This document shows positions 1 through 12,703 of a DNA stretch of 36,538 nucleotides, piece after piece; the first letter of the stretch is position 1, and each line of letters begins with the position of its first letter. The translations under genes were made by a program, and so were the position numbers. This stretch comes from a bacterium (lineage in GTDB: Bacteria > Sysuimicrobiota > Sysuimicrobiia > Sysuimicrobiales > Segetimicrobiaceae). The stretch is taken from positions 1 to 36,538 of the forward strand of contig DASSXJ010000250.1 in the NCBI GenBank assembly GCA_035703895.1, given 5' to 3'. A model generated the notes under the pieces. That model was given only the letters and a program-made list of their open reading frames with translations, had not been told where the DNA came from and made no database searches.

Positions 1-57
1 TGCCTCCGCCCGTACTGCCTCCGCCCGTATGGCCTCCGCCCGTATGGCCTCCGCTGC
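1..57 (-). repeat. 15-nt tandem repeat coding Gly-rich motif
   Basis: About 3.5 copies of a 15-nt unit (GCCTCCGCCCGTAT plus one base on the plus strand) run to the window edge. On the minus strand they encode GGHTG/GGSTG repeats of the Gly-rich protein. The copy number in the whole gene cannot be known, because the repeat continues outside the window. Confidence 0.85.
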
Positions 58-658
58 CACTTGTCCCATCACCACCACCATAACTGCCACCCGCGGCAGC
101 CCCGGACGTCGGCCCTGAGCCCGTTGACGATCCTGTGCCAGAACCCCCTGAGCCCCCGCCGGATGTGGCCCCGGACGATACACCACTCGTTGTGCCGCTC
201 GTGGACGCGCCGCTGCCGGTGCCACCTTTCATCGATGCCTTGCCACCGATAAGCAGTGTCACGAATACCGGGGATGCCGGACTGTCGGGCTTGGAGGACT
301 GAGCCCCGCTCAGCGGATCTACGGTCTGATTGCTCGCCCCCGTTGAAGACGCGGAGACAGCGCCGGTTTCATTCCACCAGTTTTTTGCGTCACCGATCCT
401 TTGACGCACCCATATTTGCCACTGGGTACCCGTCGTTCCATCCTGAGGCGCGGCCAAATCGCTTCCCGCGGCAGCGGACGCGCCCGTAACGGCGGCCTCG
501 GGCTGGCTAAGATGTTTAGCGACATGGTATAGGCCATGTTTTGCTGTGGACTGATGACGTTTGGAGTCGTGCTGGAGCAGAGGACTCGCGAGCAGTGAAC
601 CGATGGACAGCGAGAGCACACCGAAGATCGCAGCGATGGCCAGATAGCGGCGGGCCAA
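1..658 (-). CDS. Gly/Ser/Thr-rich exported protein, C-terminus beyond window
   Basis: The frame is open from a TTG start at 656-658 to the window edge (about 219 residues, no stop seen). The start is chosen because a GGGGG Shine-Dalgarno lies 7 nt upstream and no ATG or GTG is in frame before it. The N-terminus has two arginines and a hydrophobic stretch (about residues 5-24), which looks like a signal peptide or anchor. The middle (about residues 70-90) has a Trp-rich segment, QWQIWVRQRIGDAKNWWNET. After about residue 130 it is almost purely Gly/Ser/Thr and ends in GGHTGGG-type repeats. I do not recognise a family. The c-di-GMP riboswitch upstream suggests a surface, matrix or appendage role, by inference only. 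Shadow frames on both strands, including a His-run peptide on the plus strand, come from these repeats. Confidence 0.75.
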   Translation of the reverse strand, partial: MARRYLAIAAIFGVLSLSIGSLLASPLLQHDSKRHQSTAKHGLYHVAKHLSQPEAAVTGASAAAGSDLAAPQDGTTGTQWQIWVRQRIGDAKNWWNETGAVSASSTGASNQTVDPLSGAQSSKPDSPASPVFVTLLIGGKASMKGGTGSGASTSGTTSGVSSGATSGGGSGGSGTGSSTGSGPTSGAAAGGSYGGGDGTSGSGGHTGGGHTGGGSTGGG

Positions 659-673
659 TCCCAGTCCCCCTTT

Positions 674-740
674 CGGTAACCCGGCTGACCCACAAGAATG
701 GGTCCCGTGGCTTTGCGTCCCTGGGTCGCCCCAGGTTTGC
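674..740 (-). promoter_or_regulatory. cyclic-di-GMP-I (GEMM-I) riboswitch aptamer
   Basis: Read on the minus strand, the element starts GCAAACC, forms a short stem capped by a GCGA (GNRA) tetraloop, then has the near-invariant GGGACGCAAAGCC. A second hairpin (GACCCA/TGGGTC) follows, and the aptamer closes with GCCGGGTTACCG. This matches the class I c-di-GMP aptamer (Vc2 type) in order and spacing. The aptamer ends only about 15 nt before the TTG start of the Gly-rich gene, next to its Shine-Dalgarno, so control is probably at translation. A candidate -10, TAAAAT, lies at 857-852 (minus strand) with a poor -35. Confidence 0.93.
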
Positions 741-12559: not shown

Positions 12560-12577
12560 GCGTCTCGACCACCATAG

Positions 12578-12668
12578 TGTGGGGGAGCTTGGGGAACCAG
12601 GCTGAGAGGATGGCTAACCCTGCCATCGACCCCGGAACCTGATCTGGGTAATGCCAGCGGAGGGAGAC
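12578..12668 (+). promoter_or_regulatory. TPP riboswitch (THI element)
   Basis: The element contains the conserved GGGGGAGC 5' arm, GGCTGAGAGG, GACCC, ACCTGATCTGGGTAATGCC and AGCGGAGGGA in canonical order. Binding of thiamine pyrophosphate should favour the terminator that follows within a few bases and shut off the salvage operon. Confidence 0.97.
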
Positions 12669-12674
12669 TTGAGG

Positions 12675-12703
12675 CGCCGCCCCGGTTCCGGGGGCGGCGT
12701 TTT
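12675..12703 (+). terminator. intrinsic terminator / riboswitch expression platform
   Basis: A perfect 9-bp GC stem, CGCCGCCCC (12675-12683) with GGGGCGGCG (12691-12699), has a 7-nt loop and is followed by TTTT. Its position directly behind the TPP aptamer and before the first transporter gene indicates transcriptional attenuation. Confidence 0.9.

Follow-up and report, generated by a model that had tools for sequence, protein, structure and literature searches.

An A20 GEMM-I riboswitch aptamer upstream of an exported Gly-rich repeat protein gene in a member of the Segetimicrobiaceae

The analyzed stretch of DNA (the window, 36,538 nucleotides) is the whole contig C250 of a genome of 4.38 Mb that is 97% complete. 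On its minus strand, at positions 750–671, it carries a GEMM-I riboswitch aptamer directly upstream of a gene for an exported Gly-rich repeat protein. The assignment of this element to a known RNA class, as a true GEMM-I aptamer, is practically certain, and within the bacterial family GEMM-I aptamers repeatedly stand before genes for exported Gly-repeat proteins. As a complete explanation, we lean slightly toward a riboswitch with A at position 20 that most likely binds c-di-GMP and would switch off the translation of the Gly-rich exported protein. Three features are less usual: the aptamer has an A20 pocket while six sibling aptamers in the same genome have G20, its output gene is an orphan, and across the family GEMM-I is linked to exported Gly-repeat proteins.

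Identity of the aptamer and its ligand pocket

The search with RF01051 proposed in the original prediction gave 73.9 bits for the aptamer in a cmscan of the window (gathering score 35, E 2e-14), far above chance. The conserved GEMM-I block GGGACGCAAAGCC is present at 721–709, P2 is capped by a GCGA loop of the GNRA type, P3 and GCCGGGTTACCG are also there, and the alignment contains no broken pairs. The interval originally given for a c-di-GMP-I/GEMM-I aptamer (674–740, with no strand stated) falls inside this minus-strand element, in which every one of the quoted sequence blocks and the GNRA-capped stem were recovered. The TTG start codon (658–656) does follow the aptamer, at a measured distance of 13 nt from its 3' end instead of about 15 nt.

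The Rfam ranking of the aptamer was topped by RF03168 (c-di-GMP-I-UAU) with 71.7 bits (gathering score 65.9, E 7.5e-14), and the two best models differ on the subtype. In the cmscan alignment, A741 stands opposite U and C676 opposite U of the UAU consensus. If the Rfam names GGC and UAU are taken as bases 20, 47, and 92, as the consensus suggests, the window has A at base 20 and C at base 92, where the model has U at both; the RF03168 assignment was therefore dropped despite its first rank.

According to the cmscan alignment and direct reading, the ligand-contact triad consists of A20 (741), A47 (714), and C92 (676), in place of G20-A47-C92. Specifically, A47 and C92 are the bases expected in GEMM-I, the G20 of c-di-GMP-I subclass a is replaced by A, and the combination of A20, A47, and C92 is that of GEMM-Ib. 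Both the general GEMM-I model and nearly all neighboring aptamers have G at base 20. The description of the aptamer as near-canonical c-di-GMP-I thus holds for the fold, whereas base 20 marks a GEMM-Ib-type variant, for which we infer c-di-GMP rather than read it off the sequence. One study describes A47 as universally conserved and G20 and C92 as less so, and reports, from earlier binding data, weaker c-di-GMP binding for G20 mutants of Vc2 (PMC9049102). A G20A GEMM-I aptamer binds cGAMP (PMC6274999, PMC7288161), and the Geobacter GEMM-Ib riboswitches prefer cGAMP (PMC6456294, PMC8835794). With the Geobacter riboswitches the window aptamer shares A at position 20, the base on which the two were compared.

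GEMM-I aptamers were found in all 41 genomes of the class searched, with at least one and up to 13 per genome. Among 79 aptamers read in the bacterial family, three have A20. All three belong to the window's genome, which holds nine aptamers. A pattern search of 43 genomes of the class added one A20 aptamer each in genomes G009, G011, G017, and G039; a pattern match in G015 lay inside a coding sequence and was discarded. The share of A20 is 3/9 in the window's genome compared to 4 among about 197 other aptamers in the class (Fisher p 0.002). In a scan of named genomes, A20 was found in the same sequence context across many phyla among the matches listed, including many Clostridia and Chloroflexota, and A20 as such is therefore not new. 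One of the three A20 aptamers of the genome (L126, G000:C30:25319-25393) also carries A47G, at a base reported as essential; it may be degenerate or bind another ligand.

Predicted switching in the leader

A consensus scan upstream of the aptamer yielded a candidate promoter, TTGACG-18-TATCAT (923–894, minus strand, 10/12 matches), and a weaker candidate at 879–852 on the same strand. These two sites compare to 0.2 expected from shuffles, and their function is predicted only. Downstream of them, two mutually exclusive helices are predicted, which compete for the strand CCUGGUCUCC (762–753, minus strand) directly 5' of the aptamer. With the upstream 5' arm GGAGCACCAGG (792–782, minus strand), this strand pairs to an anti-P1 hairpin of -20.0 kcal/mol with a pairing probability of about 0.75–0.98. 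With the downstream strand GGGGGACUGGG (670–660, minus strand), which contains the Shine-Dalgarno sequence GGGGGA (670–665), it forms a P1 extension of 10 contiguous pairs. For the transcript 886–600, the predicted energies are close to each other, with -95.7 kcal/mol for the anti-P1 state and -93.3 kcal/mol for the P1-extension state. A P1 extension of 10 pairs was reached in 0.4% of shuffled flanks; the z-score of the leader fold, at only -1.0, speaks against the switching model.

Both helices are kept in four related G20 leaders (G000:C310, in the window's genome, and G001, G002, and G004), and a GGUCUCC strand is used by both helices in all five leaders. In the four relatives the hairpin recurs with A-U/G-C exchange, for example from ACCAGG/CCUGGU to ACCGG/CCGGU, and the P1 extension comprises 5–6 unbroken pairs compared to the 10 of the window. 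The advantage of the anti-P1 state amounted to 1.8 kcal/mol in the window, 3.1 in G000:C310, 7.3 in G001, 2.3 in G002, and 2.4 in G004. As anti-P1 is favored by about 2–7 kcal/mol in all five leaders, ligand binding would tip the balance toward the P1 extension.

Based on these models, translational control by the leader is likely. In the absence of ligand, the strand 762–753 would be held in the upstream anti-P1 hairpin. The ligand, most likely c-di-GMP and bound more weakly than at G20 aptamers, would stabilize the aptamer and P1; the strand 762–753 would then be taken into the 10-bp P1 extension, the other strand of which holds the Shine-Dalgarno sequence. With the Shine-Dalgarno sequence hidden, translation of the exported Gly-rich repeat protein would fall. 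This OFF direction on binding is the simplest reading of the models and the weakest step of the mechanism, and we favor it by a modest degree. The predicted ligand-free fold already pairs the greater part of the Shine-Dalgarno sequence with coding sequence (probability of being unpaired 0.05–0.6), so the contrast between the two states may be small.

The same pairing bears on the opposite direction, in which the ligand would turn translation ON, for example through an aptamer fold that releases the Shine-Dalgarno sequence from pairing with the coding sequence or with UCCUCC (811–806, minus strand). The latter is a possible second mask in the fold of 815–640 and is absent from the MFE structure of the longer transcript. 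An ON switch would suit the ligand-free folds, where the first part of the coding region or UCCUCC occupies most of the Shine-Dalgarno sequence, and it would match Vc1 of V. cholerae, which increases expression of the secreted GbpA (PMC4744006). Reading by eye also suggested an ON layout in the leaders of G009 and G011, where a 5' strand GGUCCCUC is able to mask GGGGGACC while overlapping P1. Nevertheless, the P1 extension of the window itself includes the Shine-Dalgarno sequence in 10 unbroken pairs, and ON control is considered unlikely. In this respect the window also differs from Vc1: it has a clear Shine-Dalgarno-masking helix, and Vc1 is without one (PMC4744006). The two RF01051 members share the aptamer fold, the GNRA loop, A47, and C92; particular to the window are A20 and a Gly-repeat output without known relative.

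No ORF with a nearby start follows this leader in the four G20 relatives, so the platform may not have arisen first for translation. These paralogues, in four genomes of the genus (L119 at G000:C310:929-1007 on the plus strand, L064, L055, and L070), are followed by a conserved element GAGCTAGTGCACCTCCCCCCC...AGGCCGGGAACCCCTCCCCGGCCTTGTCT that ends in a terminator hairpin. It is present in one copy per genome and within the family only there, with one match of two mismatches in G026. The element resembles a small RNA under riboswitch control and contains a C-rich stretch similar to an anti-Shine-Dalgarno sequence. The merRNA of Bdellovibrio, a c-di-GMP riboswitch in a non-coding RNA (PMC3627812), is a precedent for these four paralogues and not for the window copy.

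Candidate ligands of the A20 aptamer

Hypr GGDEF domains are recognized by a Ser that replaces Asp at one position (PMC6456294). The window's genome encodes 12 GGDEF domains, and every readable motif among them has Asp; a few of the domains, L019 and L021 among them, are too degenerate to read. Likewise, the readable GGDEF motifs of G009, G011, and G017 have Asp throughout. A SMODS cyclase domain was found in none of 43 genomes of the class, while an E. coli positive control was matched. Unlike the Geobacter case, a recognized cGAMP synthase (Hypr GGDEF with Ser, or SMODS/DncV) was thus not found in the 97%-complete genome; such a synthase would be supporting context for a GEMM-Ib assignment and is not a property of the RNA itself. 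As neither Hypr-type GGDEF nor SMODS domains were seen, c-di-GMP is, with fair confidence, the likelier ligand of the window aptamer. The window aptamer probably binds it with lower affinity than the genome's G20 aptamers do.

A sensor of 3',3'-cGAMP (GEMM-Ib), which would give the genome a second, separate cyclic-dinucleotide input, would explain why the triad equals that of GEMM-Ib and the G20A aptamer (PMC6274999, PMC7288161). The enrichment of A20 in this genome and its retention in the orthologous leaders of G009 and G011, although other bases changed, point the same way. Besides the negative searches for Hypr-serine and SMODS domains in the genomes named above, the wide spread of A20 in this context over phyla, among the matches listed, speaks against cGAMP. 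Furthermore, the aptamers of one Gly-repeat protein family carry G20 in two genera but A20 in another, which argues for a single signal. Taken together, cGAMP sensing appears quite improbable.

More broadly, the G20 and A20 sets within the genome may read two cyclic dinucleotides (with an unrecognized cGAMP synthase) or two c-di-GMP thresholds, with A20 placed before exported Gly-repeat genes at least twice in the family; this joint proposal is tentative and rather doubtful. The window aptamer is almost identical to the G20 aptamer of G000:C310. Such matched G20 and A20 aptamers in one genome form a natural experiment on the effect of A20 outside Geobacter, namely whether it shifts the ligand or the affinity alone. 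A decaying duplicate, that is, a copied leader of the G000:C310 type with A20 as drift and regulation lost, would fit this near-identity and the lack of an aptamer at the corresponding place in relatives, but it is very unlikely: the whole of the pairing, the GNRA loop, and the bistable leader are preserved, as are A47 and C92, and the relatives have a shorter P1 extension.

Exported Gly-repeat proteins downstream of GEMM-I aptamers

The regulated gene candidate, an ORF at 658–2 (minus strand, TTG start, 219 aa, incomplete), is open to the contig end. Its N-terminus MARRYLAIAAIFGVLSLSIGSLLA is signal-peptide-like, and the open frame ends in Gly-rich repeats. The GC content at the second codon position of the Gly part is 0.91, and no stop occurs across the 219 codons. 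The end of the gene is missing: base 1 of the window is base 1 of the contig and lies at a 15-bp tandem repeat (2–54, 3.5 copies, coding for GGG[HS]T repeats), the likely cause of the contig break. The original prediction had suggested obtaining the rest of the gene, but no other contig of the genome overlaps window positions 1–130.

Orthologues of the protein were found in none of 40 relatives; two weak matches contained stop codons, looked like chance, and were rejected. No relative was found in Pfam, PDB, phage records, or viral contigs, and the PDB matches, mostly antibody chains with E 0.07 or worse, were discarded. The prediction of an unrecognized exported protein with Gly repeats is in agreement with these results. 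Two outcomes had been named as speaking against the predicted switch, namely a missing Rfam match and a non-conserved downstream gene; the Rfam match is significant, whereas the gene is without orthologue in the 40 relatives. Control of the divergent carboxyltransferase gene is unsupported, since the gene and the aptamer are on opposite strands and the eight relatives examined have no aptamer upstream of the orthologous gene.

In the bacterial family, an exported Gly-repeat gene (start within 450 nt, hydrophobic N-terminus, and at least 18 Gly per 60 residues) follows 13 of 81 aptamers, representing about ten distinct genes, compared to 0 of 997 control positions taken from already retrieved sequence stretches and not from whole genomes. 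The window gene is of this family type, with a signal peptide, a short N-terminal part, Gly-rich repeats, and an aptamer ≤450 nt upstream; its N-terminal part has no homology to other family members. The proposed c-di-GMP effector output is thus supported in that the Gly-repeat type recurs under GEMM-I, while with A20 the c-di-GMP part of the claim is not read off the sequence. GEMM-I is hereby tied to exported Gly-repeat proteins that recur in a little-studied class and that, as a group, have apparently not been described before. A role of the window protein in the matrix or in surface attachment is plausible, if somewhat short of an even chance. The likeness to GbpA, an exported surface/attachment-type protein controlled by Vc1 (PMC4744006), is accordingly only plausible for the window protein.

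Several of the exported Gly-repeat proteins found in this way belong to one family, in which both aptamer types occur. Its proteins start with a signal peptide, followed by an N-terminal domain that spans ~85 residues and has no Pfam match, and then by repeats like GGGNNGGG or TGGTTGG. Some members are preceded by tandem G20 aptamers in G005, G008, and G010, by a single G20 aptamer in G007, and by A20 aptamers in G009 and G011. At L076 (G005:C57), L096 (G008:C39), and L107 (G010:C4), a tandem GEMM-I pair stands before an exported Gly-repeat gene, and a third aptamer lies farther upstream, in the L107 cluster before a separate ORF for an exported protein. A specific link between A20 and Gly-rich outputs was dropped: three of six A20 rows have such an output (p about 0.05, one row unassigned), which was treated as uninformative.

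A family of exported proteins with an N-terminal domain not known to Pfam is encoded at L255-L261, L265, L275, L282, and L267. Most members end in Gly/Thr/Asn-rich repeats, and GEMM-I aptamers are found near some and not near others.

Elsewhere in the window, a TPP riboswitch (12571–12683, plus strand, 57.1 bits) precedes an operon for an ABC transporter whose binding protein is NMT1/THI5-like, which is consistent with the uptake of a thiamine precursor.
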